Shown here: positions 5,963 through 43,895 of the stretch, piece after piece
How the letters are laid out: every line of letters begins with the position of its first letter
How positions within the stretch are numbered: the first letter of the stretch is position 1
NCBI GenBank assembly: GCA_019695345.1
Contig: JAIBAE010000026.1
Location: 1 to 48,529, forward strand
From: Bacteroidota bacterium
Lineage (GTDB): Bacteria; Bacteroidota; Ignavibacteria; Kapaibacteriales; NICIL-2
Direction: 5' to 3'
DNA: 48,529 nt
Position numbers and translations under genes: made by a program
The notes under the pieces: model-generated
The model's database searches: none
Seen by the model: the letters and a program-made list of their open reading frames with translations, nothing else
Told to the model about the DNA's origin: nothing

Positions 5963-6460
5963 TTAGTTAGCTACTTTTCCAATGGTGTTAAGGGAATCGA
6001 ATATAGAACGAAACTCTTTACTGCCATACGTTTGATACCGCGCATCCCACATGGCACGCAAAGATACTTGGTTTGCGGGATTCTGGTATTCAATAAAATG
6101 CCGCGTCTTTGCCGGAACAAACAACGATTGAATTTTTATGAACGTATTACGAACTGTATCCTTAAAAAAACATAACTGCGATGCTGATACAGTTCCAATA
6201 GAATCGCGCTCGTAATTAGACTTCTTTGTTGAAGCAACATAACGCCACAAACGTGCATTGGCATCAATTTCATATCCGTACAACGTACCGGTGGAATCAT
6301 AATACACACCCCAACGGATAAGCAAATCTTTTGTACTCTCGGTAATGCAGTTGGTACGGTATACATCGCCTGAATTGTTTTTTACAACACCCGATGTTGT
6401 TCCTCCGCATCCAAGCATCAGAATACAAATCGAAACACAAATTGAAAGTACGTATTTCAT
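5963..6460 (-). CDS. Putative lipoprotein, unknown function
   Basis: A 165-residue protein with a signal peptide ending in a lipobox (LMLGC, then GGTTSG), so it is probably lipid-anchored at Cys18. The mature part is hydrophilic with no recognised domain. It sits directly upstream of the NtrC-type regulator (7-nt gap, same strand). That suggests an operon and perhaps a role in sensing or in the process the regulator controls, but this is inference from position only. Confidence 0.7.
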   Translation of the reverse strand: MKYVLSICVSICILMLGCGGTTSGVVKNNSGDVYRTNCITESTKDLLIRWGVYYDSTGTLYGYEIDANARLWRYVASTKKSNYERDSIGTVSASQLCFFKDTVRNTFIKIQSLFVPAKTRHFIEYQNPANQVSLRAMWDARYQTYGSKEFRSIFDSLNTIGKVAN

Positions 6461-6485
6461 AATTCAGCGAAAGATAATTGTGGTT

Positions 6486-6544
6486 CGGTTACAGTATTTC
6501 ACAGCGTTCAGCGCGCCAACCCTGTGCGAACCGAGCCTTGGTGA
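6486..6544. repeat. Family B dispersed repeat
   Basis: GGTTACAGTATTTCACAGCG is followed by TTCAGCGCGCCAACCCTGTG and CGAACCGAGC. It is nearly the same as the copies at 2296 and 27686, and is the reverse complement of the one at 8057. It fills the gap between gltX and the lipoprotein gene. Confidence 0.6.
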
Positions 6545-6553
6545 ATGCAAATT

Positions 6554-8011
6554 TTATAACGAATTCAGAAATCGTTCAATGCGGTACACGCTTGCATCTT
6601 TTCCAAGAATTGCAATTGTGTCCATCATTCCCGCACCAACAGATTTACCGGTAACTGCCAAACGTAAAATGTTACCAATATCTTTAAACTTCATGCCGTT
6701 ATCTTTTACGTACGTGCTTATTGCGTTATGTACGGTATCGTGGTTGAAGTTTTCGGCATCTAATGTTCTAATCACATCCAAAATACCTCGTATAATATCG
6801 GCTGAGTTGTCTTTCCAAACCGATGCTTTGAACTCTTCATCAATAACAGGGTCTGTAAACATATACATACCAAAATCTGCTAACTCTGTAATTAACGTTA
6901 TGCGCTCGTGAAGAAGTTGAACAACGTTGCCAACATATTCATCGCTTGCAGTTACACCACGTTGGCGCAAAGTGGGTTGTACTTGCTCTACCAAATAACC
7001 AAGATTATTGGTAACATAGGATTTCATGTATTGGGAGTTCATCCATTCGAGTTTTTTCAAATCGAACACCGCACCAGCTTTGTTTACATGCTCAAGCTGA
7101 AACTCTTTTACCAATTCATCAATAGAATAAATCTCACGTTCGCCACTTGGGTTCCAACCAAGCAAAACGATAAAGTTGAGGAATGCTTCTTGGAAGTAAC
7201 CTTTGTTAATGTAGTCGTGTGTGGCTACATCGCCCTGGCGTTTGCTGAGTTTAGTTTTGTCGGGGTTGAGGAGTAACGGTAAGTGTGCAAACTTTGGTGC
7301 TTCCCATCCAAATCCTTCGTACAACAACACGTGTTTGGGTGTAGATGGCAACCATTCTTCGCCACGGATTACGTGAGTTATTGCCATTGTGTGGTCGTCC
7401 ACAACGTTTGCTAAGTGATACGTTGGGAAGTTGTCGGACTTGAGTAATATCTGGTCGTCCACATCTTTACATGGCACAACAATATTCCCACGAATCACAT
7501 CGTGGAATTTTACTTCGCCTGTTATGGGAACTTTCATGCGGACTGCAGCGGGTTCGCCTAAGTCTAATAAGCGTTGGGTTTCTTCCGGGCCAAGTGTAAA
7601 CTGATTCCGCATAGATGAACGGTCGTACCGTGGGGCTATGCCGGCAGCTTTTTGGCGTTCGCGCATGCGGTCGAGTTCTTCGGCTGTATCAAACGCATAA
7701 TATCCCATGCCTTTTTCAATGAGTTCTTTTGCATAGGCACGGTATAAATCTGTGCGATCGCTTTGCACATAGGGGCCGTAGTCTCCGCCACGTTGTGGAG
7801 ATTCATCGGGCACAATGCCTGCCCATTCTAACGATGAAACGATGTCATCTACCGAGCCTTCTACATACCGAGTCTGGTCGGTATCTTCAATCCGTAGAAT
7901 AAATGTTCCGCCGTGATGTTTGGCAAACAAGTAGTTATATAATGCTGTTCGTAATCCGCCAACGTGTAAGTATCCGGTTGGCGATGGTGCAAAGCGTACT
8001 CGTACTGACAT
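6554..8011 (-). CDS. gltX: Glutamate--tRNA ligase
   Basis: A 485-residue class I aminoacyl-tRNA synthetase that charges tRNA-Glu (and in many bacteria tRNA-Gln) with glutamate. The HIGH-type motif appears near the N-terminus (FAPSPTGYLHVGG) and the KMSKS-type motif as KLSKRQGD. The length is normal for GluRS. The frame is open 20 codons further upstream, but the start at 8011 (MSVRVRFAPSPTG) matches the family, and the extra residues look like translated intergenic sequence. No Shine-Dalgarno is evident, as is common in this group. A family B repeat separates it from queD upstream, so co-transcription with queF-queD is possible but unsure. Confidence 0.95.
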   Translation of the reverse strand: MSVRVRFAPSPTGYLHVGGLRTALYNYLFAKHHGGTFILRIEDTDQTRYVEGSVDDIVSSLEWAGIVPDESPQRGGDYGPYVQSDRTDLYRAYAKELIEKGMGYYAFDTAEELDRMRERQKAAGIAPRYDRSSMRNQFTLGPEETQRLLDLGEPAAVRMKVPITGEVKFHDVIRGNIVVPCKDVDDQILLKSDNFPTYHLANVVDDHTMAITHVIRGEEWLPSTPKHVLLYEGFGWEAPKFAHLPLLLNPDKTKLSKRQGDVATHDYINKGYFQEAFLNFIVLLGWNPSGEREIYSIDELVKEFQLEHVNKAGAVFDLKKLEWMNSQYMKSYVTNNLGYLVEQVQPTLRQRGVTASDEYVGNVVQLLHERITLITELADFGMYMFTDPVIDEEFKASVWKDNSADIIRGILDVIRTLDAENFNHDTVHNAISTYVKDNGMKFKDIGNILRLAVTGKSVGAGMMDTIAILGKDASVYRIERFLNSL

Positions 8012-8056
8012 GGTTGTTATTATTATGTGAACGATTTGTACTACCGATGTTTTGTA

Positions 8057-8117
8057 AGGGTTGGATCGCACAGGGTTGGCGCGCTGAAGGCACTATAATC
8101 CTGTGAGGGTAACCAAC
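8057..8117. repeat. Family B dispersed repeat (reverse orientation)
   Basis: On the minus strand it reads GGTTACCCTCACAGG, then CTTCAGCGCGCCAACCCTGT and GCGATCC, the same core as the copy at 6486. The two copies thus flank gltX in opposite orientation. This one begins 2 nt from the queD stop codon. Confidence 0.6.
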
Positions 8118-8119
8118 AC

Positions 8120-8545
8120 TTATTTTATTACCACACTGCGTTCTGCGTAAGAGTGTTCGGTTTCGTGTAGGCGAACTGCTATCCGGTGAATGCGTGGGTT
8201 TTGAAGAAGTTGTTCTTTGATTTGTTCTAAGAGCCAGTTACAGATGTTCTCGGCGGTTGTTACAAACGGAACGACTTCGGTTTTCATGGGATTTGTGAGA
8301 AAAAACTCTATCATTACGGAGTCTTGTTCGTCGCAAATAAACGCATGATCTAATTTATCTATTATTGGCTGAACTATGGTGGAAATATCGTAAAAGTCTA
8401 TTACCATTCCATTGTTGTCAAGCTCGCCTTCCAACTCAACGCGGAGTTTATACGAATGTCCGTGAATATTCTTGCATAGCCCGTTGTGGAAGGGGAGTCG
8501 GTGCCCCATTTCCCAGCGAAAATCTTTTGCAATGGTTGTGGTCAT
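8120..8545 (-). CDS. queD: 6-carboxy-5,6,7,8-tetrahydropterin synthase
   Basis: A 141-residue member of the 6-pyruvoyl-tetrahydropterin synthase family. It most likely converts dihydroneopterin triphosphate to 6-carboxytetrahydropterin in queuosine synthesis. Zinc ligands H15, H28 and H30 (MGHRLPF and IHGHSY) and the catalytic C24 are visible. The pairing with queF (4-nt gap, same strand) supports QueD rather than a biopterin role. queC and queE are not in this window. The chain is slightly longer than the minimal QueD because of an acidic loop after DHAFICDEQD. Confidence 0.9.
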   Translation of the reverse strand: MTTTIAKDFRWEMGHRLPFHNGLCKNIHGHSYKLRVELEGELDNNGMVIDFYDISTIVQPIIDKLDHAFICDEQDSVMIEFFLTNPMKTEVVPFVTTAENICNWLLEQIKEQLLQNPRIHRIAVRLHETEHSYAERSVVIK

Positions 8546-8549
8546 GGTA

Positions 8550-8894
8550 CTATCCTTCGCGTGTGTAGGTTGCTTCTATAATGGAGTGAATTCCACCACG
8601 TGTGCTCCATTCACTCTTTATGGTCATGCTAATTGGATTACAACAAGCTACTAAATCGTCGAGTATTTTATTGGTAACGGCTTCGTAAAAAATGCCCTGG
8701 TTACGGAAATCAAGGTAATAGTATTTGAGTGATTTTAACTCTACGCAGATTTCATCGGGGATGTACTGTAGGGTAATGGTGCCGAAGTCCGGCAAGCCGG
8801 TAACAGGGCAAACTGATGTAAATTCTGGGTTTACGTGAGTAATAGAGTATCGCCGGTTGCGATTTGGGTTTGGAAATGTTTCTAAAGTAGCCAT
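8550..8894 (-). CDS. queF: NADPH-dependent preQ0 reductase
   Basis: A 114-residue type I QueF that reduces 7-cyano-7-deazaguanine (preQ0) to preQ1 for queuosine. The nucleophile is C29 in SVCPVTGLPDFG and the catalytic Asp is D36. The family signature ELKSLKYYYLDFRNQG is present. The open frame runs 68 codons further upstream, but the start at 8894 (MATLETFPNPN) matches the family length and the upstream part looks non-coding. It is first in the leftward queF-queD pair. No preQ1 riboswitch could be recognised in the 96 bases upstream. Confidence 0.92.
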   Translation of the reverse strand: MATLETFPNPNRNRRYSITHVNPEFTSVCPVTGLPDFGTITLQYIPDEICVELKSLKYYYLDFRNQGIFYEAVTNKILDDLVACCNPISMTIKSEWSTRGGIHSIIEATYTREG

Positions 8895-8990
8895 TGGAAA
8901 CTTTATGTGTGTAATGGTGAAAAATTTGGACAAAAAGTAGAATCGGACTGCAAAACTACATGATTTTAACCAAGAAATTGCGAACAATGG

Positions 8991-9021
8991 TTTGTCCGTT
9001 TGCAGAAATGCCGTATTTTCG
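8991..9021 (+). promoter_or_regulatory. Candidate promoter of rpsF-rplI
   Basis: TTTG (8991-8994), then 19 nt, then TATTTTCG (9014-9021). This differs at one base from the Bacteroidota pattern TTTG-N19-TAnnTTTG. It predicts transcription from about 9027 and a leader of about 85 nt before rpsF. Confidence 0.5.
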
Positions 9022-9040
9022 CGGTCTGTGTTTTTACATC

Positions 9041-9068
9041 CTGCCGTAAAGTATAGTTTTACGGCTAG
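9041..9068 (+). promoter_or_regulatory. Hairpin in the rpsF leader
   Basis: GCCGTAAA (9043-9050) and TTTACGGC (9058-9065) form a perfect 8-bp stem with a 7-nt loop. It can be extended by CT/AG with one bulged T. It would lie in the 5' leader made from the promoter at 8991. It might be a binding site for ribosomal proteins that control the operon, but the bulged CCG known for S6:S18 leader sites is not obvious. Confidence 0.45.
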
Positions 9069-9110
9069 TGTTTCATAGCAAAACAGTACACTAACCATAG
9101 GAGTTTTTTC

Positions 9111-9488
9111 ATGAGCGTTCGTCGTTTATACGAAACAACGTACATTATCAATGCCGCTTTAGAAGATGGCGATGTAGAATCGGTAGCAAAACGTGTTAGC
9201 GAATACATTGAGAATCACGGCGGTACCATAGTAGAGACCAACCGTTGGGGTCGCAGACGTTTAGGTTACCCAATCAAAAAGAAATTCAACGGATATTATG
9301 TTCACTGCATTTTTGAAGCACCAAGCAACACAATTCCTCTTTTAGAGCGTTTCTTTGTGTTGGACGACAATGTATTGCGTCACTTAACGCTTCAGTTAAC
9401 TGAGAAACTGCATCAGTTCCGCAAAACACGTGCAATTGCACAAGCAGAACGCGCGGCAGCATTAGCAGCAGCATCCGATAACAAGTAA
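9111..9488 (+). CDS. rpsF: 30S ribosomal protein bS6
   Basis: A 125-residue small-subunit protein. Family features are the opening RRLYETTYIINAAL, the central NRWGRRRLGYPIKKKFNGYY and FFVLDDNVLRHL, followed by a charged and Ala-rich tail (about 104-125). It has a good ribosome-binding site, AGGAG at 9099-9103, 7 nt before ATG. rplI follows 66 nt downstream. The usual middle gene rpsR (bS18, the direct partner of bS6 on the ribosome) is absent from this place, as is ssb. Confidence 0.96.
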   Translation: MSVRRLYETTYIINAALEDGDVESVAKRVSEYIENHGGTIVETNRWGRRRLGYPIKKKFNGYYVHCIFEAPSNTIPLLERFFVLDDNVLRHLTLQLTEKLHQFRKTRAIAQAERAAALAAASDNK

Positions 9489-9554
9489 GTTGTTATAACG
9501 GAAACACAACATAATAGTAGAATTTGAAAACAAATAATAATTAAGGTATAAGCC

Positions 9555-10001
9555 ATGAAAGTGATTCTTCGCGAAGACGTTGCTAACTTAGGCAACATCG
9601 GCGACATAGTAACAGTAAAGGATGGTTACGCTCGTAACTATCTGATACCACGTTCGCTTGCATATTTTGCTAATCCTTCTGCATTAAAACGCCTTGAAAC
9701 TGAGCGTCGTACATACGAAAAGAAACAATTACGTATGCGCGAGCAAGCAGAATTAACAGCAAGCAAACTTTCCGAATTACAAATTTCCATCCCAATGCAA
9801 GTTGGCGAAGAAGGTAAATTGTTTGGTTCGGTAACTCCACAAATGATTGCTCAGGAGTTGGATGTTCGCGGTTTCAATATCGACCGCCGTACAATTATCA
9901 TCGATGAGCCAATTAAATCGTTAGGTGTGTTCGACGTAAAAGTACGTTTGCACCACGATGTTATCGGAACGTTAAAAGTATGGGTTATCAGTCAGGAATA
10001 A
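9555..10001 (+). CDS. rplI: 50S ribosomal protein bL9
   Basis: A 148-residue large-subunit protein. The N-terminal domain carries the signature (MKVILREDVANLGNIGDIVTV, with GYARNYLIPR). A long connecting helix (about 44-76, charged) leads to the C-terminal domain, where GEEGKLFGSVTPQ is typical. Full length. AAGG lies about 8 nt before the start. It is in an operon with rpsF and ends at the terminator at 10031. Confidence 0.96.
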   Translation: MKVILREDVANLGNIGDIVTVKDGYARNYLIPRSLAYFANPSALKRLETERRTYEKKQLRMREQAELTASKLSELQISIPMQVGEEGKLFGSVTPQMIAQELDVRGFNIDRRTIIIDEPIKSLGVFDVKVRLHHDVIGTLKVWVISQE

Positions 10002-25758: not shown

Positions 25759-25826
25759 CGCTGTACCGAGCGGTTCGCGCCGAGTCTGCGCGTAGTATGG
25801 ATTGCTTCGGCAGAGGCGGGAAACCC
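25759..25826. repeat. Family B dispersed repeat (reverse orientation)
   Basis: The minus strand reads GGGTTTCCCGCCTCTGCCGA, then AGCAATCC and GCGCAGACTCGGCGCGAACC. It shares its first half with the copy at 31005 and its second with those at 31167 and 27686. It sits in the 249-bp gap upstream of the small membrane-protein gene. Confidence 0.5.
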
Positions 25827-25893: not shown

Positions 25894-27654
25894 TTACTTT
25901 GTACTCATGGGCGAGTTCATAATTGGCGGTTTTGGGAAGTCGCCTTCTAACGGACGAATCTCAACGTCTTCGAATAACAAATCGGGCACAATTACCGACG
26001 CCGCCAAATACTGCGAGCCACCCGAAATATATGGGCTTGTTACCGCAGGTGCTAAAAAGTTGTAGGCATACGGTGTTTTACCAACTGCAAGCAAATCCTT
26101 AAACATGCTTGGTGCCATTCCTGCTGCTTGGGTACCACGTACAAGTTCTTCGCGGCCATCGGGGAATACTTTGTACACCTCAAGCAAATTCATGGTTGAC
26201 TCGCCAAGTGAATAAGGGAAGTCTCCACTGGTTTGCGAGAACAATGTTGTGTAAAGTATATTCTGGTTTAGTGCTTTACGAACAATGTAACCAAACTGTA
26301 AGTCGCGGTCTTTTAGAATCTTTGCCATGCGTTTGATAAGCTCTTTGTGGTCTGCTTCTTTTTTCTTGTCGTTACATACAAATTGCAGAACATCAAACAT
26401 AGCGGCACAGCCACGTTGGCGTCCGTTGCTTTGTTTTATGCGTCGTGTTGGGATTCTGGAACTGAGTAAAGTTTTTAAGTATCCTTTATCAACCAATGTA
26501 AGTTTCTCGGGGCGTATTCCATCGTCATCTAACGTAAAAGAACCAAACAATGGTGTTTTGTTAAATGTAGTTTCTTTTGGAATGGAATAGACTGAACAAA
26601 ACTCTGCCATAACACGCGCACCAACTTTATTCTGGAATGCAGTGTAGCGGTCGTTATCCTGAATACCTCTATCGGTTAAAGGAGCGCGTTGAGTTGCTAC
26701 GTACGGTGCAAACATCTGCGCAAACACTTCTGCTGCTGCCTGACCTTCAAACAACACCGGACCCGAATACGGCTCGACAGTGTTGGAGGTTAGACATTGC
26801 TCTAACTTTGTTGCAATCATATCTGCGGCACGTGCCAAAGAGTCGCGCCAAGGTAAATCGTTAGGGTGCTTTGCATAAGCAGAATACATTTGTGCAAGTG
26901 GCATTCCATCGGCTGCTTGGGTAGAACACACAATCTCAAAGCCGGTTTGCAATTCTGTTTTTACATACTCACGTCCTTCGCTATTAACATAGATAACAGT
27001 TTCGGGCAGGTATTCCATGCTCACACTACTTGCGTTAATGTTTGGATGTTTTGTAAATGCTAACGATGTGAGCATAACTAATTCTTCAAAACGTTTTTTA
27101 TCCCACGCTGGGATTGCAAACGTATCAATTTCAGTTACGGGTGGTAGTAGGGTAAAATCGTAGGTGGTATCTAAGCGCGAACGGTTTTTTACCGATGATT
27201 CTTTTTTAGCATATAGCTCAACTGCTTGTTTGTAACATGCATCGCTTGCCAGCCATAACTCACGGCGGAACGCATTGTAATCTAACTCCATTGGAACGCG
27301 ACGGTTCTTAAAATTCTCTTCGTCATCGCTCGAGCCAAAGAAGCTCAAACTTACATCAAAGAAATTTGTGTTATCGAACTCCGGTTTACCAACACGAATC
27401 CCAACAGTAAGCCGTGGAACAAGTGCCGAACTTGACTCAACCAAACTGCCAAGCGTTGCCTTTACATTATTGCTTTGGCGGATAGTTAACGTGTATTCAA
27501 TGTAATACGGCTTTTGCAACGACGCCACCTGCAACTCCTGTAACGAGCGTTTAATTTCATCGCGCATTGCACGGCGTACCTGCTCAATATTCTGGGCATT
27601 GGTAAGCGATGTTGCAAAAACAAATAGTAGTACTAATCCGGATATTTTCTTCAT
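25894..27654 (-). CDS. Exported TldD/PmbA-like protein lacking metal ligands
   Basis: A 586-residue protein with a signal peptide (MKKISGLVLLFVFATSLTNA), related to the TldD/PmbA (TldE) peptidase family and to its neighbour at 27814. Aligned without gaps to the neighbour, the metal-binding motif HEIFGH is replaced by AQMFAP, so both histidines and the glutamate are gone. It is therefore probably a non-catalytic partner, like PmbA/TldE beside TldD. Unlike those cytoplasmic proteins, both here appear exported. The frame opens 11 codons upstream (27687), but the start at 27654 gives the signal peptide directly. The two genes lie on the same strand 160 bp apart, split by repeats. Confidence 0.8.
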   Translation of the reverse strand: MKKISGLVLLFVFATSLTNAQNIEQVRRAMRDEIKRSLQELQVASLQKPYYIEYTLTIRQSNNVKATLGSLVESSSALVPRLTVGIRVGKPEFDNTNFFDVSLSFFGSSDDEENFKNRRVPMELDYNAFRRELWLASDACYKQAVELYAKKESSVKNRSRLDTTYDFTLLPPVTEIDTFAIPAWDKKRFEELVMLTSLAFTKHPNINASSVSMEYLPETVIYVNSEGREYVKTELQTGFEIVCSTQAADGMPLAQMYSAYAKHPNDLPWRDSLARAADMIATKLEQCLTSNTVEPYSGPVLFEGQAAAEVFAQMFAPYVATQRAPLTDRGIQDNDRYTAFQNKVGARVMAEFCSVYSIPKETTFNKTPLFGSFTLDDDGIRPEKLTLVDKGYLKTLLSSRIPTRRIKQSNGRQRGCAAMFDVLQFVCNDKKKEADHKELIKRMAKILKDRDLQFGYIVRKALNQNILYTTLFSQTSGDFPYSLGESTMNLLEVYKVFPDGREELVRGTQAAGMAPSMFKDLLAVGKTPYAYNFLAPAVTSPYISGGSQYLAASVIVPDLLFEDVEIRPLEGDFPKPPIMNSPMSTK

Positions 27655-27685
27655 AATCGTTGTATGTAATTGTTTTATTTCTCTC

Positions 27686-27807
27686 ACAGTATTTCACAGC
27701 GTTCAGCGCGCAGACCCGGCGCGAGCCGAGCGTTGGTTAATGCGGTTACTTCCCGCAAGATGTTGGTGTTTAGTAATGTACATTCGGTGCGGTCAGGCGT
27801 TAGCAAA
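27686..27807. repeat. Family B repeat joined to a family A half
   Basis: ACAGTATTTCACAGCGTTCA and GCGCGCAGACCCGGCGCGAG form the family B part. GGTTACTTCCCGCAAG and CGGTGCGGTCAGGCGTTAGC plus AAA (27785-27807) form a family A right half that ends 6 nt from the stop codon at 27814. This composite separates the two TldD-like genes. Confidence 0.6.
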
Positions 27808-27813
27808 TAATAC

Positions 27814-29511
27814 TTATGGCTTAGCACCTGTAACCGGTGAAGCAAGGAGTGGCGGCTTTGCCTGACTCTTTGCTTTCTTCTGAACTTCTATTGTGGACAC
27901 CAGTAAACTTGGGCTACTTGCACTTACAGGCACCCCGCCACTCTCTGCGCCACACACACCATTAAAAATACCGATGTCATCTGCCGCGGCAACAATGTTA
28001 TTAAACGTTGCAAGCGGAGTACCGATTAAATCCACACCGCGAACAAGTTCATCGGCGCGACCATCGGCATATATTTTATACACCACAAGCGGCTGTACGT
28101 TAAATGCGTTGGGTACTGTTCTACCTGTAAATGTAAAACCGCCACTGATGTCCTCGAACAATAAGCCGTACTCTTTATTCTGCTTTTTACATTCGTTGCG
28201 AAGTTGCGTGCGAAGTGAATCGTAAGGAATTTGTTTGTGAGCAACTACCATCAGGTTTGATTGGCGTGCAACACAACGGTATCCTGCTTGGCGTCTGCCG
28301 TGACCGTTGGAAACCGGAAAACCATCAATTGGAGAACGTGACATCAGAAAGCTTTTGAAGATTCCATTTTCAACCGATACAACTTTCTTTCCTTCTACTC
28401 CTTCATCGTCGAACTTAAAGTAACCAACTAAATCGGTATTGCCACGTTGTTTTAAAGTTGGGTCGAAAACCACGTCAATAAAATCGGGTAATATCTTTTT
28501 GTTTACGAAGTTCTTAAATGTTTGTGATGAGTTAGGATCTTTCTGACGGTGACCTTCAACTCTGTGACCAAATATCTCGTGGAAAAATACGCCCGATGAA
28601 CGCCCTGATAAAATTGCCGGACCTGTATATGTTTCAGCAAGCGGTGCCTCGCGAAGTTTGCCCAACAGTGAAATCATTTCTTCCACATCTTTGCGGAGTG
28701 ATTCTTCGTTGGGAAGTCTATCGGCAGTGAATGCAGTGTATGATTTGTATAAGGGCAACGTCATGCCGTCATCGGCTTTTGTACTTGCCTGAATAAACAG
28801 CTTTACTATCGGCTCGGCAGAAACAATTTCAGAGCCTTCGCTACTTACAAAATACTTTACGTTTAAGTCTTGTTGGAAATACATACGCGCTGTAAAGATT
28901 TTGCCATCGCGTGAAAACAGAGCAGACAATCGGCGCATGATGCCTTTCCATTGTGCGGTATCAACAATAAATTGTGTGTCAACATTATCTTTATAAATAA
29001 TCGGAGACTGATGCGAGAAATCTGCGGAAGTATCTTCTTCTTTAACTTTTACTGCCTTGTTGGTAAGAACTTTACCATAGCGCTCAACCGCTGACTTATA
29101 AATACGGTCGGTTGCGCTCCATAACGCCTGGCGTATGGGCATTTCATCGTTACCTAACGGAAGTTGTTTGCCGCCGCGTCCGCCGCCGCCAAAATCAAAT
29201 GCCTGCCCGCGAATTACGTGGGTATTATCGAGGTTGTAATCGCCAACGCGCATATCAATATCAAGCAACCGTTGTTTGGAGTAATCAGCAGCTTCTATAT
29301 TTCCAAACGAAACGGATATTCGTTGAGACTGTATATCGGTAACACAATACGATAAATAATACGGAGGACGCTGTTCTTTCCCAAGTTGCTTCATGGAACG
29401 CTGAAGTTCCGATTTCATGGCAGTTAATAATGCGGGGTCGTTTTGGGCATGTACTACAGAGCCAAACAACAGTAAAGAACAAAAAAGAGATAAGCGAATC
29501 AAAACGTACAT
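27814..29511 (-). CDS. Exported TldD-like metallopeptidase
   Basis: A 565-residue protein with a signal peptide (MYVLIRLSLFCSLLLFGSVV, then HAQ), so it is probably periplasmic or outer-membrane associated. It belongs to the TldD/PmbA modulator-of-gyrase family. The HExxxH motif is intact as H311-E312-I-F-G-H316, followed by VEGHR, as in active TldD. GRRQAGYRC is near the C-terminal third. The upstream part (about 165-300) corresponds to the TldD N-terminal domain. In E. coli, TldD and TldE form a cytoplasmic heterodimer that degrades unfolded peptides and matures microcins. Here a secreted pair is suggested, with the degenerate protein at 25894 as partner. Substrate unknown. Confidence 0.83.
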   Translation of the reverse strand: MYVLIRLSLFCSLLLFGSVVHAQNDPALLTAMKSELQRSMKQLGKEQRPPYYLSYCVTDIQSQRISVSFGNIEAADYSKQRLLDIDMRVGDYNLDNTHVIRGQAFDFGGGGRGGKQLPLGNDEMPIRQALWSATDRIYKSAVERYGKVLTNKAVKVKEEDTSADFSHQSPIIYKDNVDTQFIVDTAQWKGIMRRLSALFSRDGKIFTARMYFQQDLNVKYFVSSEGSEIVSAEPIVKLFIQASTKADDGMTLPLYKSYTAFTADRLPNEESLRKDVEEMISLLGKLREAPLAETYTGPAILSGRSSGVFFHEIFGHRVEGHRQKDPNSSQTFKNFVNKKILPDFIDVVFDPTLKQRGNTDLVGYFKFDDEGVEGKKVVSVENGIFKSFLMSRSPIDGFPVSNGHGRRQAGYRCVARQSNLMVVAHKQIPYDSLRTQLRNECKKQNKEYGLLFEDISGGFTFTGRTVPNAFNVQPLVVYKIYADGRADELVRGVDLIGTPLATFNNIVAAADDIGIFNGVCGAESGGVPVSASSPSLLVSTIEVQKKAKSQAKPPLLASPVTGAKP

Positions 29512-29663: not shown

Positions 29664-30362
29664 TTAACGTACTATAGCAAGTTTACCAAGTGAAACTACT
29701 TTACCACCATTGATAACAGTGTAATTATACATTCCCGCCGGTAATGCAGCTGTGCTGAATTGGGTTGAGCTACCGTTGAACGATACATTCTGAACTTGCT
29801 GACCAAGGTTATTGGTGATAACTAATTGAGATTGTACGTTTCCTTCCGGTAGATTAACCTGAATAGTTGCAATATCTGATGTTGGGTTTGGAGTAACGAA
29901 TGATGGAGTTGTAGCTTCTTCTTTAACATCGGTTGTACCAACATGGATTGTGATTTTAACATCAAGTTTATCTGATTCGCTATTGATATTGTAAATGGTA
30001 TAGGTAAGAATTGTGGTGCCCATTACATTGTTTGGGAAAAAACTCATGTGTCCGGAATCATTTACGTCATTCGGTGCTAATACTACAGTACCATCTTTAC
30101 CGGATGTTTCATTTTGAGATTCGCCAAAACACTGTTCTGCAAAACAAAATGTACTGGTATGACCATTTACCTGCTCCGCACGATTAATTTTTAAGCGGTA
30201 GCTATTTGTAGATGAAGATATATTCTTAATTGCAACCGTGAAGTTAACGGATTTATTAGGTGTAGTCCAATATTCCATGGTCATTGGCTCAAGCTGAATG
30301 GTTTGTGCCATAGCCATAAATGGAATTACACAAAAAATAATAAGGCGTATCAAGAATTTCAT
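29664..30362 (-). CDS. Secreted protein with T9SS sorting domain
   Basis: A 232-residue exported protein. It has a signal peptide (MKFLIRLIIFCVIPFMAMAQ), then a single immunoglobulin-like beta domain (about 21-145: VNFTVAIKNISSSTNSYRLK, and a CFAEQCF pair that may form a disulfide). A T9SS type A domain occupies about the last 80 residues (TPNPTSDIATIQV, VITNNLGQQVQNV, AGMYNYTV). The frame extends 28 codons upstream into the divergent promoter region, but the start at 30362 yields the signal peptide. It is divergent from the thioredoxin gene. Function unknown. Confidence 0.83.
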   Translation of the reverse strand: MKFLIRLIIFCVIPFMAMAQTIQLEPMTMEYWTTPNKSVNFTVAIKNISSSTNSYRLKINRAEQVNGHTSTFCFAEQCFGESQNETSGKDGTVVLAPNDVNDSGHMSFFPNNVMGTTILTYTIYNINSESDKLDVKITIHVGTTDVKEEATTPSFVTPNPTSDIATIQVNLPEGNVQSQLVITNNLGQQVQNVSFNGSSTQFSTAALPAGMYNYTVINGGKVVSLGKLAIVR

Positions 30363-30487
30363 AAGTTTGCTCCGAAACATTTTAGATAAAACAATTGTCA
30401 CAGTTTTCAATCCGCAAAATACAAAAGCGAATCCGTTCAAAAACACGAATAATTAAAACAAGTTTCAATACTATTTCAGGAATCCTT

Positions 30488-30997
30488 ATGAAAATTGTTA
30501 GTTTTCTTGCTCTTATTGTTGTTTTTACATTGGCTGCCCATACCAAGTTTGCCGATGCCTCAAAACTTCCCGCTATTAAAATTAAAACTCTTGACGGTAA
30601 AACTATCAACACAGCCGACCTTGCTAACGACGGTAAACCAATCATTTTAGACTTTTGGGCCACCTGGTGCAAACCATGCGTTCAGGAATTGAGTAATATT
30701 TCTACCGTGTACGAAGATTGGCAAAAAGAAACCGGTGTTAAAGTAATTGCAGTTTCCATAGATGATGCGCGTAATAGCCACAAAGTTGCACCATTTGTTA
30801 AGGGACGTAACTGGGATTACGAGGTATATATTGATGAAAACTCCGACCTAAAACGTGCGCTTAATGTAAACGAAATCCCGCATACATTCCTTATCAATGG
30901 AAAGGGCGAAATTGTTTATCAGCATAAATCATATGCTCCGGGCGATGAGAATCACTTATACGAAGAAGTGAAAAAAGTTGCAGGGTTAACGAAGTAA
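30488..30997 (+). CDS. Exported thioredoxin-like protein (TlpA/ResA type)
   Basis: A 169-residue protein. It has an N-terminal signal sequence (MKIVSFLALIVVFTLAAHT) and a thioredoxin fold of the TlpA/ResA group with the redox motif W60-C61-K-P-C64 in ILDFWATWCKPC. IPHTFLINGKGEIVY holds the cis-Pro region. It probably reduces disulfides in the periplasm, for example for cytochrome c assembly. AGGA lies just before the ATG at 30488. The frame runs 31 codons further upstream into the shared promoter region and is not used here. It is a single gene, ended by the terminator at 31084. Confidence 0.88.
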   Translation: MKIVSFLALIVVFTLAAHTKFADASKLPAIKIKTLDGKTINTADLANDGKPIILDFWATWCKPCVQELSNISTVYEDWQKETGVKVIAVSIDDARNSHKVAPFVKGRNWDYEVYIDENSDLKRALNVNEIPHTFLINGKGEIVYQHKSYAPGDENHLYEEVKKVAGLTK

Positions 30998-31166: not shown

Positions 31167-31224
31167 GGTGGGTTCGCGCTGTGTCTGCGCGCTGGCGCGT
31201 TTGCTACGGTAGTAGCGGGTAACC
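31167..31224. repeat. Family B dispersed repeat (reverse orientation)
   Basis: The minus strand reads GGTTACCCGCTACTACCGTA, then GCGCCAGCGCGCAGACACAG and CGCGAACCCACC. It ends 4 nt from the stop codon of the gene at 31229. Confidence 0.5.
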
Positions 31225-36461: not shown

Positions 36462-39400
36462 ATGAAAAAAGCAGTACTTTTATTAGTAACAATGATTTGT
36501 GGAATGCAAGCCTACGCCCAAGATGTACGCGTGGATGTGCGGTTGTTGCGTCCTGTCCCGTTACAGCTATCGCAATGGCGTACCGACCCAAGTATTGTGC
36601 AAATTCAGATTACTGCGTTGCGTAATGTTGAACCGTTTATTGTTGCTTTTGAAGTTAGGAATAATAATACGGGGCAAAGTGCTCGAACAAATAACTCGCA
36701 TGCGTGTATGCCGTTGTTTCCCGACCGTGGCTCGCGTAGATTAAACGCCGGTGAAGTGATTACGATAAATGGTCCGCAACTGATTTGTAATAATGCCGTA
36801 GATGCGGCACCTGAACTTCAGCGTAGTGTACTTGCCGCAGGTGCTATTCCGGAAGGTGATTACTCTTTTTGTATAAAAGTAATTAACGCAACCGACCGCC
36901 GCACAGAATACGCCTTAACCGGAAGAGACTGCGATTACTTTACCGCAGTATGGAGCGACCCTCCAAGTTTAATAAACCCTGTAAGCCAGATGGATATTGC
37001 TTGTACAAGTGCAATCAATTTGCAATGGACGCCGCTATCACCACCTATACCCGGAGTAACAACACAATACAGAGTTAAAGTTGTTGGTGTACAAGATGGG
37101 CAAGAACCGCGTGCTGCACTTGATGCCGCCGCAGTTACCGATGTTGTGATTAATGAGATTGTTCTTGCAAGCCCATATTTGATTGCTCCGAACAATCCGC
37201 GCATACTTGATATTATAAACCGCCGTGCTCCGCGATATACAAGATTTGCATGGCAAGTTCAAGCAGTACAAAATGATGTTGCACACACTCCGATTGCAAC
37301 ACGTGGTGGCGGATTAGGCAAAAGTGAGATTGGTTTATTTTGGGTGAACTGTGCTTCGGTAGAAACTTCTTGTACTACAGAGCGATTTAACCTGATAAAC
37401 TTTTACCCTGATAACAGAGATACAGTGCCGTGGGTATACCCACATATGATTATGCAGTGGAGTCCGTTTTGTAACGAATTACAAAGTTACGATTACACGC
37501 TGCATATTAACAGAGTTGGTGGTGGCGCATTGCCGGATAACTCTAGGTTGCTTTCGTGGGGTAATAATGTGATGTCGGCACAAGGAGTAAGTGATGCATT
37601 ACGTGCTTCGCTTATTATTGGTAATACACGTAATAGAACAGGTGGAACGCCAACGTTAAACAATTCGTTAGAACGAGGTCCGGGATACTCTTGGTATTGC
37701 GAAACTGACATTGTAAAAAGTGGCAGAACATTTCATGCAACATCAACACCAACAGAATTCTCGTTAGGATTGAAAATGCCGGTGAATCCTGAGCCGGCCA
37801 ATAATGCCGTGTTAGAAAGCGGTGCAGCCGTAGCTCTTCGTTGGGATATACCGTCACCATCTCGGTTAATGTTCGACCCACCAGATGTAGGGACAAGAAT
37901 AAGAACAGAGAGTGGGATGGAGTTTGGTGCGGCAATGGAGTTTGTTCGTGTGAAGTTATCACGAGCTAATGATATGAGCTCACCAATTGCATCGCGTTCA
38001 CAACGATTCCCGGAAACAGGAAATTATGTTACGGGTGAAAGTGCTATCAATGGAATGTTTGGCAGAAAAGCATTAGAAGGTTTGAATTTAACTTCGGGAA
38101 CGTATTATTGGCGTGTTGAATATTGTAACCCGATGGATACGTTGCAAGTGTACCGCCAAGGACCCATTTGGCGATTTGAAATTCGTAGTGAGGATATTCC
38201 TGCTACAACGTGTTTACGCATAACACCTGCAGCACCCGAGAACAGAGGTACAGTCTCGGAAGGTACTGGTAGAGTTCGTTTCTCTGTGTTAGTGCGACCG
38301 TTAATTAACATCAATAACGTTCGTGGGGGACGATTACGCATTTGGCGTATGAGTTCGATGAGTGAAGAACCAGGAACAGTAAAAGGTCGCCCACCGGTAT
38401 TCGACGGTAGTTTTTCCGGTCATGCAGAACAAGATATACGCCTTGCTATGGAAAGCGGTTCGTTATCAGCCTACAACCTAAACTTTTTGAATGGCGAGCG
38501 TGCAACACAAACCTGGACAGCTACAAACAATACCACATACATGTGGCAGTTTACATTACAGGTTGATGGCGCGAGTATTCGCCGAGATGGAACGCCATGT
38601 ACACTATCGCAAATTGAAAGTAGTGACGGTATTTTTACGTTCCGTCAAGGATGTACCGACCCATGTATAAAACCCGCACCATCAAACACAACGCCGTCAT
38701 CGCGTTCGTTTGCAGTAGGCGATGAACTTATCGTCGGGCATTTCCGTGCTAGGTTAACACGAGTAAGCGGAACAGGTAGTTCGTTAAGTGGCGAAGCAAC
38801 AGTAAACATTCCTGTATTTCGCGGTGGAATGCAAGTTGAGTTTAACAATATTCAGGTGAACTCGGATAATGAAGTATATGGTGGAGAGTTGCGTGGTAGA
38901 GTAGCACCAAGCGCACCCGTAAACAGTACCGTTGCTAATGCATTGACAGGAGGTTTGGGCTTAACACGTCCGCAAGTGGATGCAATGCACGGATTGGCTT
39001 CGGATGCTACGCGCTTAGTAAGCAATTTAGTTGAGGGCTCACCGGTAAACTTACCGATTGGATTTGATAGAGTCATTGAAGGGCAAAGAGTTGTTGTTGG
39101 TGTTATGGGAATGGTATTTATGCCAACCAGTGCACGGATGAATGTTGTGCTTTCATTCCCTATGCCTGCATTAGGGCCGGGAGAACGCATTGGATTTGGT
39201 GCAAGGAATCTGTGCTTTTATCCGGGTGGGTTAGGAAGTGAGTTTGATATTGGCTTAGTTGATGACTTAGGGTACCGCCCAAGTGATTCTTCGTGGTCGT
39301 TCCACTTCTTAGCTCCACGAAGTGAAGACAGAGGACGAGGTGTTGCGGCTGACTCAGGAACATTTGCACGTTTTGGGTGTAATGGATTTGAGTTTATTCG

Positions 39401-42400
39401 GATTAAAGCAGAAGTGGAATTTCCGCAAACGTGGATGAAACACTCGCCAGATGACGGACACAATGTTAAGGCGCAGTTTACAACTCTTATACGCGCATCG
39501 GGAGATTTTATAGCTGAAGCCACGATGGAACAATTCTCGCCTGCCGGAACGCCGGACTTTGTGATGAGAGTTGACACTGTTGCCTTGGACTTTTCGGATT
39601 TAGATAACCCAAGGTCAATACGTTTTCCGGAAGGATATAGAGGTGCAACTGATAACCATTGGCGTGGATTCTATATGAACCGGTTAACAATGAAGTTACC
39701 CGACCAGCTACGAACCTTTGAAGAAGGAAGACCACCGCAAGTTGAAGTTGCTAATACATTGATTGACAGAACCGGTTTTTCGATGAAGGCAAGAGTAGTG
39801 AATATTATTCAATACCCACGAGGCAACTTTGGTGAATGGGGTGCATCGTTAGATACAGCAGGGATTGACTTTGTGAGTTCGTCGTTGGAACGTGGTTATC
39901 TGATGGGTAGAATAAAAATTCCAATTAGTGATAGTGCTTTAGCTTATAGTGCTACACTTGCCCGTGCTAGAGGTGGTAGTGGATTAGAGTTTGAGTTTAA
40001 TATACGTCCGCGAGATACAATTAACGCGCCATTGTGGGTTGCACGATTGCGATTAAACCCAACATCGTATATACGATTAAATGCAAGTGCGCGCGGGTTT
40101 GTTGCAGAAGCAATGTTAAGCGGTGGTATCTCTATAACGGGTGATGCAAATGGTATCCCGCTTGGGTTTAGAGGAATTCGGTTTGAGAATTTTCATTTAA
40201 CAACTAACGCACCGTACATAGAGTGTGGTAACTGGAGTTTTGCTTCACCACAACACGGATTGTTTGTAGAACCCGTGCCAACACCAACAGGAGAAGGTGG
40301 TGGTAGTAACGGTGGTATGAGTGGATTCCCGGTTAGTATAGGAAATATACAAGTTGTTGGTGGAACGCGTGAAGGTGGACGTCCCGGCATGGGAATTCGA
40401 TTTACGATTAGCGTTAACTTACAACCGGGTAATAATGCAATAAGTGGTGGAACTACGCTAAGTATATGGGGCGCAATGGAAACTGCCGGTGGCATGCGGG
40501 CAGTGTTTGATGGTGTTGATTTGGATTCGATTGGAATACGTGCAGATATGGGTGCAGTAGCAATTGAAGGTAGTGTTGCATTTTACAGAAGAGACCCAAC
40601 ATTTGGAACAGGATTTAGAGGAAGAATCAGCGCAAACTTTTTACGTATGGTACAAGCTACTGCAACAATGCAATTTGGAGCTAAACCTATTTCGCCAAGT
40701 AGTGCAGAAGAGTTTAGGTATTGGTATGTTGATGCTCGTGTTACATTGTCATCGGGTATTATGGTGTTCAGTGGTGTGGGTATCTATGGCTTTGGTGGTG
40801 GTGCTTGGTATAATATGGTCCGAGAAACGCCAAGTAGTTCAGGAGCGAGCCTCTCCGCCGCGGATAGGGCTTTACTTAGTGGTGGTGCGGGGGCGTCTGC
40901 GCCAGCATCATCTACACCGGGTCAGACTAATTCGGGAACACGTTATGTTCCTTCGTACGACCCACGTGGTGCAACGTTTGGTTTTTATGGAATGATAACC
41001 GTTGGTACGTATCCAAGTGCTGATGCCTTTAACTGTGATGTTCGCTTGGAGGTTTCGTTTGCTGGTGGAGGTATTAGAGAAATACGATTACGTGGTGATG
41101 GATATATGATGGCAGGTATAAATAGCAGGAGTGATGCTAAGGTAACTATGTATGCAGATATTTATTACAACTTCCCAGATAGAATTTTTCACGGTGATTT
41201 TGATGTGAGAATTCGTGCCGCGGTTGTTACGGGCGGCGGACACATGGTGATGCACTTTGCACCAACCACATGGTATGTAAAAATTGGTGACCCCGAAGCA
41301 GAGCGTGTGAATATTAATTTGATGGATATTATTCAGGTACAAGCGTATGTAATGTGCGGTATGAACTTACCAAACAGTATGAATGTACCAAGAGAGATTA
41401 CTGAGTTGATTGCAGTTCCGCCACCGCCACGTGGTATGGCACAACTTACACGCGGAGATGGATTTGCATTTGGCGCAAGAGCAGATATACCTCCGGGTCC
41501 GCGTCCTTTGGAAATGCAGTTCCTGATTTTCTATGCCTCAATGAAGTTAATGGTTGGCTTTGATGTTTCGTTATTGAATTACGGACCAAATGCAACGTGT
41601 GCAAACACCGGTGGTGCAATGGGAATTAACGGTTGGTATGCGTTGGGGCAAATGTATGCACGTGTAGATGCTTCGATTGGAATTGGTGTGGACTTATGGT
41701 TTGTATCGGGTAGGTTTGAAATACTTGGGATGCGGCTTGCAGCTATCTTGCGTGCAGGATTACCTAACCCAACTTGGATGCAAGGTGCTGTTGGTGGAGA
41801 TTATAACATTCTTGGTGGTTTGGTTCACGGACATTGTGAATTCCAATTTAGTGTTGGAGAAGAATGCAGACCAATTGTAGAAAGCGGTGCAGCAAGTGCT
41901 GATTGGTTTAACCAGATTTCGCCACAAGATGGTGCGACTGATGTTTCAATTTTTGTACAGCCATCGGTAGCAGCTAACTTACCATTAGAAAAACCATTTT
42001 ACTTAGAAGAACCCGATGGTAATGGAAGAACGGTTATCAAGATTTACCGTTTGAAAGTTCGTTCGTTTACTATGGTGAATGCAGATAGAGGTAATGCTGC
42101 GGTTACTACAGCAAATCAGGTGAATGCGAATGATGCACACTATGTGGTGCAAACACCTTCTGCTCCTTTAACACAACGCACTCGCCATACATCCACATTT
42201 ACAGCGTACGCACAAGAGTTTACAGGTAGCAGTGTTGGTTTTGCTACGCAAATGGCTTCTACCGCTACAATAAGAGATGCCGCAGCACGCGAGAACGCGC
42301 GCATGGATTATTTAAACAGATACTATAATACTCCAACTAACTGGAGTGATGCACGATTCAGAACCGGAGATAGAAGAGGTCAGTTGATAGAGAAATCTAT

Positions 42401-43895
42401 TTCAACAACATTTACAACCGAAGTATTACCGGATTCTATTCGACCGCAAGAAGTGTATTTATCGTATCCCCGTAACCGCCAGCGTTGGTATTTACAAGGA
42501 CATTGTACGAATGGATTTATTAGTTTGCTTAACAACCGTGCAGATTTGTTTCCTGCAAATACCAGAGTAATGACCTATGATTATTATCTGCGGTTTATTT
42601 CAATGCCGGGTAACCAAAAAATTGAAGTTCCATTTTCGTATAATGTTTCTCAACCACCGTATTACGTTGGCGAAACACGTGACCAAAGCACTGCAGCCTT
42701 ACGTTCTGCATGGGCATCACGTGGGGGATACATTTCGTTTGAGATACCACCACTACAAAACAATACCATGTATGCAGTACAGGTTATTAGAAAAGGTACG
42801 TCAATTACTGCCATGGCAGCAGCAGGCATGTCGTCTTTTAGTATGCCGGCATTAGGTGGAGCTGGTGGCGGAAGAAGTACGCCGGGTGTATCAGCTGCGG
42901 GTATTGCAGGTTCTGCATTATCATCCAGTCTAGCTGGAACTCAAATCAGAAATCTCTATGCCTCTATGCTTGGAAGATATAGCTCATCGTTGAACATACA
43001 ACAACGCCAGATTTCAGGATTTGAGTTAGGAAGAACCGTTAACGATTTTGAAAAGTTGCTCTTTTTAATGTTCTTCAAAACAAGCCGTCACAACCAATTA
43101 GGCGCAAAGGTAGCAACATTAACACGTGGCACCACTACGGTTACACCTGCTTCATGGAATTTACAAACGGTGAAATCGGGATATACAGCACCGGAGTTAT
43201 TTGACCCGTTTGATATCGAAACACAAACAGTTGATTTAGGCACTAACGGTGTAACACATACCTACAAAATAGATCCGCTTATCAAAATTAGCGGAACGCC
43301 GCGTACATCCCGTTGGCATACGCAATATGCTAACCCGTTAATCTATGATGCCTATAACTGGATGCGGTTTGGCTTAGGACAGTATGCATTGTTAACACGC
43401 CAGTTAGAGTTTGATAGAGCAATTGCACGAGGTGAAAACTTTGTAGATGCACCAAGTGTTGACCCCGCTATTACCGATGGCGAGATATCCTCTGTATCTA
43501 ATCCCGGACTCATGCGCTCATTCTCAATGTTACAACGTATAAGGTTTACCATACAACCAAACCAAAGTGGTTCATCGTTAGGAATTGGAAGTGGAGGTAC
43601 TGTGTCGTTTGCCCCTTATCAATGGAATGTTCATTACATGCAACCGGCGTTTGTTGGCTTCTTGGATTTCCCAATTGTACGAAGTGCTGCTGCACGTCTG
43701 TACGCAAGTTTCTGCGGTGGAGGCGATGTTGGATTTACTCCGGCAGAGTGCGCTCGCTTACGCCAGATTGCTACTACACCGTATAATTATCCGGAATCAA
43801 TCAGACCAAGCAGGTATCAGGTAAACTTGTGGTACAACTACTGCGATATCCCCGATGTAACAACGCCTATGTATCAAATATATCTCGAATACTAA
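36462..43895 (+). CDS. Giant secreted TANFOR-like surface protein
   Basis: A 2477-residue exported protein, about 7.4 kb of uninterrupted frame. It has a signal peptide (MKKAVLLLVTMICGMQAYA). Residues about 20-170 resemble the TANFOR domain of Bacteroidota surface proteins: GAIPEGDYSFCIKV, GRDCDYFTAVWSDPPSLINP. Fibronectin-like or Ig-like segments follow (INLQWTPLSPP, VALRWDIPSPS, GTYYWRVEYCN). The large middle (about 780-1800) is glycine- and beta-rich with repeated 'GISITG...FENF' and 'YGFGGGAWYN' style strands and a Ser/Ala/Gly linker near 1456-1496. It contains many Cys. There is no T9SS domain at the C-terminus (MYQIYLEY), so export may need a partner such as the barrel upstream. The FN3 gene starts 14 nt downstream. 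Function unknown; adhesion or gliding is possible. Confidence 0.75.
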   Translation: MKKAVLLLVTMICGMQAYAQDVRVDVRLLRPVPLQLSQWRTDPSIVQIQITALRNVEPFIVAFEVRNNNTGQSARTNNSHACMPLFPDRGSRRLNAGEVITINGPQLICNNAVDAAPELQRSVLAAGAIPEGDYSFCIKVINATDRRTEYALTGRDCDYFTAVWSDPPSLINPVSQMDIACTSAINLQWTPLSPPIPGVTTQYRVKVVGVQDGQEPRAALDAAAVTDVVINEIVLASPYLIAPNNPRILDIINRRAPRYTRFAWQVQAVQNDVAHTPIATRGGGLGKSEIGLFWVNCASVETSCTTERFNLINFYPDNRDTVPWVYPHMIMQWSPFCNELQSYDYTLHINRVGGGALPDNSRLLSWGNNVMSAQGVSDALRASLIIGNTRNRTGGTPTLNNSLERGPGYSWYCETDIVKSGRTFHATSTPTEFSLGLKMPVNPEPANNAVLESGAAVALRWDIPSPSRLMFDPPDVGTRIRTESGMEFGAAMEFVRVKLSRANDMSSPIASRSQRFPETGNYVTGESAINGMFGRKALEGLNLTSGTYYWRVEYCNPMDTLQVYRQGPIWRFEIRSEDIPATTCLRITPAAPENRGTVSEGTGRVRFSVLVRPLININNVRGGRLRIWRMSSMSEEPGTVKGRPPVFDGSFSGHAEQDIRLAMESGSLSAYNLNFLNGERATQTWTATNNTTYMWQFTLQVDGASIRRDGTPCTLSQIESSDGIFTFRQGCTDPCIKPAPSNTTPSSRSFAVGDELIVGHFRARLTRVSGTGSSLSGEATVNIPVFRGGMQVEFNNIQVNSDNEVYGGELRGRVAPSAPVNSTVANALTGGLGLTRPQVDAMHGLASDATRLVSNLVEGSPVNLPIGFDRVIEGQRVVVGVMGMVFMPTSARMNVVLSFPMPALGPGERIGFGARNLCFYPGGLGSEFDIGLVDDLGYRPSDSSWSFHFLAPRSEDRGRGVAADSGTFARFGCNGFEFIRIKAEVEFPQTWMKHSPDDGHNVKAQFTTLIRASGDFIAEATMEQFSPAGTPDFVMRVDTVALDFSDLDNPRSIRFPEGYRGATDNHWRGFYMNRLTMKLPDQLRTFEEGRPPQVEVANTLIDRTGFSMKARVVNIIQYPRGNFGEWGASLDTAGIDFVSSSLERGYLMGRIKIPISDSALAYSATLARARGGSGLEFEFNIRPRDTINAPLWVARLRLNPTSYIRLNASARGFVAEAMLSGGISITGDANGIPLGFRGIRFENFHLTTNAPYIECGNWSFASPQHGLFVEPVPTPTGEGGGSNGGMSGFPVSIGNIQVVGGTREGGRPGMGIRFTISVNLQPGNNAISGGTTLSIWGAMETAGGMRAVFDGVDLDSIGIRADMGAVAIEGSVAFYRRDPTFGTGFRGRISANFLRMVQATATMQFGAKPISPSSAEEFRYWYVDARVTLSSGIMVFSGVGIYGFGGGAWYNMVRETPSSSGASLSAADRALLSGGAGASAPASSTPGQTNSGTRYVPSYDPRGATFGFYGMITVGTYPSADAFNCDVRLEVSFAGGGIREIRLRGDGYMMAGINSRSDAKVTMYADIYYNFPDRIFHGDFDVRIRAAVVTGGGHMVMHFAPTTWYVKIGDPEAERVNINLMDIIQVQAYVMCGMNLPNSMNVPREITELIAVPPPPRGMAQLTRGDGFAFGARADIPPGPRPLEMQFLIFYASMKLMVGFDVSLLNYGPNATCANTGGAMGINGWYALGQMYARVDASIGIGVDLWFVSGRFEILGMRLAAILRAGLPNPTWMQGAVGGDYNILGGLVHGHCEFQFSVGEECRPIVESGAASADWFNQISPQDGATDVSIFVQPSVAANLPLEKPFYLEEPDGNGRTVIKIYRLKVRSFTMVNADRGNAAVTTANQVNANDAHYVVQTPSAPLTQRTRHTSTFTAYAQEFTGSSVGFATQMASTATIRDAAARENARMDYLNRYYNTPTNWSDARFRTGDRRGQLIEKSISTTFTTEVLPDSIRPQEVYLSYPRNRQRWYLQGHCTNGFISLLNNRADLFPANTRVMTYDYYLRFISMPGNQKIEVPFSYNVSQPPYYVGETRDQSTAALRSAWASRGGYISFEIPPLQNNTMYAVQVIRKGTSITAMAAAGMSSFSMPALGGAGGGRSTPGVSAAGIAGSALSSSLAGTQIRNLYASMLGRYSSSLNIQQRQISGFELGRTVNDFEKLLFLMFFKTSRHNQLGAKVATLTRGTTTVTPASWNLQTVKSGYTAPELFDPFDIETQTVDLGTNGVTHTYKIDPLIKISGTPRTSRWHTQYANPLIYDAYNWMRFGLGQYALLTRQLEFDRAIARGENFVDAPSVDPAITDGEISSVSNPGLMRSFSMLQRIRFTIQPNQSGSSLGIGSGGTVSFAPYQWNVHYMQPAFVGFLDFPIVRSAAARLYASFCGGGDVGFTPAECARLRQIATTPYNYPESIRPSRYQVNLWYNYCDIPDVTTPMYQIYLEY

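Follow-up and report, generated by a model that had tools for sequence, protein, structure and literature searches.

Two TldD homologues encoded side by side

The analysed window covers 48,529 bp of a contig from a Kapaibacteriales genome that is 99.9% complete. Its minus strand carries two ORFs for TldD homologues, at the positions where the initial annotation had placed them. The active subunit, an apparently exported TldD-type metallopeptidase of 565 aa, is encoded at 27814..29511, and the ATG at 29511 is the start of its ORF. The inactive subunit, an apparently exported TldD homologue without metal ligands, has a length of 586 aa and is located at 25894..27654. A longer ORF of 597 aa opens at a GTG at 27687, but the sequence indicates that the ATG at 27654 is likely the true start, as the leader is then located at the N-terminus.

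The assignment of the active subunit is based on the C-terminal domain PmbA_TldD_3rd (PF19289, 88 bits at a cut-off of 22), on a sequence search against the PDB, which matched the E. coli TldD chain 5nj5_A (E 6e-16), and on the conservation of its motif. The metal-binding and catalytic motif HEIFGH (aa 311-316, 28564..28581, minus strand) is equivalent to the HExxxH motif at residues 262-267 of E. coli TldD, and Cys520 (27952..27954, minus strand) aligns with Cys454, the third metal ligand of the E. coli protein (PMC5810440). An alignment of the active subunits of Kapaibacteriales revealed this cysteine in 43 out of 44 sequences, the remaining one being truncated. Therefore, the HExxxH motif and the remote cysteine ligand that characterize a catalytic TldD subunit are both present.

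The inactive subunit also contains PF19289 (49.6 bits, cut-off 22), and a PDB sequence search with this protein gave no match. A BLASTP comparison of both proteins showed 28% identity over nearly the full length (E 2e-51) with a gapless motif region, confirming the proposed alignment of HEIFGH with a pseudo-active site AQMFAP (aa 312-317, 26704..26721, minus strand). The replaced motif is itself conserved in the alignment of 45 Kapaibacteriales partners (Q in 42/45, P in 43/45), which argues for a function and not for decay. The third ligand is replaced by Ala535 (26050..26052, minus strand), and alanine is found at this position in 41 of the 45 partners. Thus, the inactive subunit has neither a metal ligand nor the catalytic Glu. 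The initial annotation had stated that all metal ligands are lost, which is correct and even stronger than claimed, since the third ligand had been overlooked.

Both proteins begin with leaders that look like ordinary Sec signal peptides: MYVLIRLSLFCSLLLFGSVVHA followed by QN in the active subunit (29446..29511, minus strand) and MKKISGLVLLFVFATSLTNA followed by QN in the inactive one (27595..27654, minus strand). A hydropathy count over relatives revealed a clear leader in 64/74 active and 55/63 inactive proteins, with most of the leaderless cases having no ATG within the range scanned; canonical TldE has no leader in this survey. Sequence features and survey are therefore in line with the signal peptides suggested earlier for both proteins. 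Neither subunit matched a type IX sorting domain, whereas the adjacent gene at 29664-30446 does, which would make the periplasm the likeliest location of the pair. A lipobox-like LTAGC was observed in one close relative (L064).

Conservation of the pair across genomes

A scan of named genomes revealed at least 80 loci with the active gene in many phyla, including Bacteroidota, Acidobacteriota, Gemmatimonadota, Planctomycetota, Verrucomicrobiota, Proteobacteria and others; among the named relatives are Candidatus Kapaibacterium and other Ignavibacteria/Bacteroidota. The partner is located directly downstream of the active gene or fused to it in 75 of the 80 loci listed, and the gap between the two genes has a median of about 21 nt. 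Of the other five, four are from Kapabacteria that carry the partner at another place in the genome, and one lies too close to the end of its contig. In a separate phylum sample, the partner adjoins the active gene in all six genomes that contain the latter. The two genes are naturally fused in some Kapabacteria, Gemmatimonadetes, Eisenbacteria and Gammaproteobacteria.

Within the Kapaibacteriales, the domain was found in 61/61 sampled genomes, and 119 out of 123 genomes gave a strong match to the inactive partner or to a large piece of it. A 120th genome (G002) retains only the C-terminal end of the partner, which is cut by the contig edge. Both genes are present on different contigs in G035, G030, G013, G015, G045, G018 and G012, and the contig of G041 stops inside the active gene. 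Only the active gene was found in G394 (85% complete) and only the partner in G052 and G053, while G369 and G374 gave no match to the exported partner. The initial annotation had named relatives with only one of the two genes as evidence against its reading. The reading passed this test: both genes are adjacent or fused at 75 of the 80 loci, and most of the remaining exceptions in Kapaibacteriales are incomplete or fragmented assemblies. The pairing is ancient and near-obligate.

Additional copies mostly arrive as complete pairs. A candidate for an intact lone subunit in G179 was ruled out, as it turned out to be a frameshifted remnant. This locus (L180, contig 67, 3906-5700) combines a HETPGH motif with a partner-like C-terminus without the cysteine and is possibly left over from recombination between two tandem genes. 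In a Pseudomonadales pair (L118 in G397, 5994-9653) about 1.8 kb of sequence interrupts the partner gene, and the same genome also has a second, complete pair.

The host genome itself contains no further protein with the TldD C-terminal domain PF19289 as far as we could find, and no cytoplasmic TldD/TldE was detected with PF19289 or the TldD model. A match to PF01523 on contig 44 was discarded as a further TldD, because it is spurious and sits in a ClpC-like ATPase. A search for plasmid copies of the pair gave no match.

The motif is distributed in a strict manner. HExxGH is conserved throughout the active copies (128/128) and was found at the equivalent position in 0/120 partners, one of which carries an unrelated HExxxH elsewhere in its sequence. 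This contrast indicates that the difference between active and dead subunit is not due to chance. Furthermore, the pairwise distances between loci correlate for the two subunits with r 0.91 compared to at most 0.11 in shuffles, a value to which shared ancestry of the organisms contributes.

Family membership and origin of the inactive subunit

The pair belongs to the TldD/PmbA superfamily (PF19289, MEROPS M103). The overall TldD/TldE fold was found in an AF2 model of the inactive subunit (pLDDT 92.9, pTM 0.92), which aligns with the TldD chain 5nj5_A at Z 30.2 over 440 residues, and in the active half of a modelled natural fusion, which aligns with the TldD chain 5nj5_C at Z 36.3. In a Pfam search at E 0.001, the N-terminal domain PF01523 (PmbA_TldD_1st) was recognised in neither protein, and the structural alignment of the partner covers that half. 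The curated cut-offs for the TldD equivalog, NCBIfam NF008006 and NF040952, were missed by far (55.3 vs 513 and 92.4 vs 635 bits), so it is possible that substrate and chemistry have changed.

E. coli TldD/TldE (PDB 5NJ5 and relatives, MEROPS M103) is the closest known system. Both of its subunits are required, and they form a hollow heterodimer in which the metal is bound by TldD only (PMC5810440). The exported pair shares the fold, the HExxxH motif with a cysteine in one subunit, the ligand-free partner and the joint conservation of both subunits. Unlike the E. coli proteins, it has Sec-type leaders on both subunits, the proteins are longer (565/586 aa vs 481/450 aa), the genes usually form one operon or are fused, and the scores are far below the curated TldD cut-offs. 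In addition, the dead subunit is not placed with TldE in the tree, and its model is closer to TldD chains (Z about 30) than to TldE chains of E. coli (Z about 24).

A maximum likelihood tree of 75 proteins separated the exported subunits, active as well as inactive, from TldD and TldE with full support (100/100), although the branch between both halves is long and model error is possible. Within the exported half, support is moderate for the active group (70/92) and better for the inactive group (93/98). A constrained tree with the inactive partner and TldE in one clade is worse by 118 log units (AU p 3.4e-11). Therefore, the idea that the dead partner is an exported TldE was rejected. As the same ligands are present in both active groups, the simplest explanation is that they were lost twice independently. 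On this simplest account of the sequence data, the dead partner would have arisen separately from TldE, and the design of one active plus one dead subunit would have evolved twice. The suggestion that the pair repeats the TldD/TldE logic thus applies more literally than it was meant, with a dead subunit that goes back to its own loss.

Some Bacteroidota loci (L053, L072, L162-L165) likewise encode a TldD-type pair that is apparently exported. They differ in being canonical TldD/TldE by sequence, with a leader on the active subunit only, which is of the Tat type. The TldD leader of these loci is twin-arginine-like (RR.F[IL]) and the adjacent TldE is leaderless, so that co-export of a folded heterodimer by Tat is possible. 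Another case is MXAN_2519 of Myxococcus xanthus, for which the likeness is limited to family name and envelope location: a "Peptidase U62", as the family was formerly called, is enriched in outer-membrane vesicles of this bacterium (PMC4158809). We found no description of an exported TldD pair in the literature searched, a set that lies outside the main family review. An exported pair with a separately evolved dead subunit therefore seems, provisionally, to be new to the literature.

Possible function of the pair in the periplasm

With regard to complex, location, activity and substrate, we infer that the pair is probably (at about 0.68) a periplasmic heterodimeric M103 peptidase of the TldD fold that shortens unfolded exported peptides at their N-terminus. 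Sec would carry both subunits across the inner membrane, and after folding in the periplasm they would close around a hollow chamber. His311, His316 and Cys520 of the active subunit would hold the metal, with Glu312 as general base, whereas the ligand-free partner would complete the chamber and leave room for the substrate N-terminus. By analogy to E. coli TldD/E, an unfolded peptide might enter through a narrow channel, where short pieces would be cut off its N-terminus, so that access rather than sequence would determine selectivity.

The proposed heterodimer is in line with the existence of natural fusions and with the model of one of them (pLDDT 84.8, pTM 0.83), in which the pTM refers to the fused chain and is not a measurement of the interface. 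This value is higher than expected for two randomly placed halves. The protein modelled was itself a natural fusion, and the underlying alignment contained 14 paired rows; nine alignment rows came from neighbouring genes in the same frame, joined by reading across the stop codon. According to a citation in PMC5810440, a TldD homodimer from Sulfolobus was reported to be active, and therefore the active subunit of the pair might also work alone.

A cysteine as metal ligand is unusual in the oxidising periplasm, which counts against the periplasmic peptidase described here. A thioredoxin-like protein with a WCKPC motif and a possible leader is encoded at 30395-30997 of the window, two genes away from the pair. 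We can only speculate that it could keep the ligand cysteine reduced.

The most likely task of the pair would be a housekeeping one, in which unfolded exported peptides are trimmed or disposed of. The upstream neighbours in Kapabacteria are mainly housekeeping genes, namely phosphoglycerate mutase, GlmU and aspartate decarboxylase as named from their sequences, while a UDP-glucose dehydrogenase or a secreted subtilase is found downstream. Together with the near-universal occurrence in Kapaibacteriales, this leads us to prefer a general role. We consider it unlikely that the pair is a dedicated enzyme that matures a single class of exported modified peptide, RiPP or pheromone-like. Such an enzyme would have a precedent in the maturation of microcin B17 by E. 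coli TldD/E, whose genes lie outside the biosynthetic cluster (PMC10885120), and the fold is suited to it as it threads unfolded peptides (PMC5810440). For a dedicated enzyme, however, patchy occurrence and linkage to a substrate would be expected, whereas the domain is present in all sampled Kapaibacteriales genomes and in many phyla, and the gene neighbourhoods gave no convincing neighbour common to different phyla as a clue to the substrate.

Still somewhat less probable is an amide hydrolase other than a peptidase, for instance an N-deacetylase acting on an envelope metabolite. The distance to the curated TldD models would fit this idea, and so would a review cited in PMC10885120, the title of which names N-deacetylases among the TldD/TldE proteins; on the other hand, the active subunit has the full set of metal ligands of the peptidase as well as its catalytic Glu, and the partner is conserved along with them. 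A reading of the dead subunit as a functionless duplicate in decay is hardly credible and largely refuted by conservation already. It does evolve faster, with a mean identity between loci of 35% compared to 50% for the active subunit, but it has stayed in frame across phyla, even where it is unlinked or fused, and the AQ..AP residues are conserved in Kapaibacteriales.

A broader reading is more tentative, and we would not quite offer even odds for it: a second ancient TldD-type lineage outside the cytoplasm, spread over many phyla, with a dead subunit of its own that evolved independently of TldE, and acting on unfolded peptides as a general periplasmic N-terminal trimmer. No such trimmer of the TldD fold was described in the literature searched. 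The pair points to an enzyme design, with a live and a dead subunit that would enclose a chamber, which arose twice from a single fold, and it provides a natural test of why a dead subunit stays, be it as chamber wall, for access control or for stability. It also suggests a widespread and unstudied step of envelope proteolysis in Acidobacteriota, Gemmatimonadota, Planctomycetota, Kapaibacteriales and others. For structural work, single-chain versions are available in the natural fusions.

Two further features of the window deserve mention. An ORF of 2477 aa without Pfam match is located at 36462-43895 and is followed by a protein with an fn3 domain. In addition, a dispersed GC-rich repeat similar to TTCGCGCCGAGTCTGCGCGT occurs at 25774-25793, 27706-27725 and 31173-31192. 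It lies on both sides of the gene for the inactive subunit in opposite orientation, and 14 copies with at most 2 mismatches are present in the genome, compared to 0 for the reversed control.
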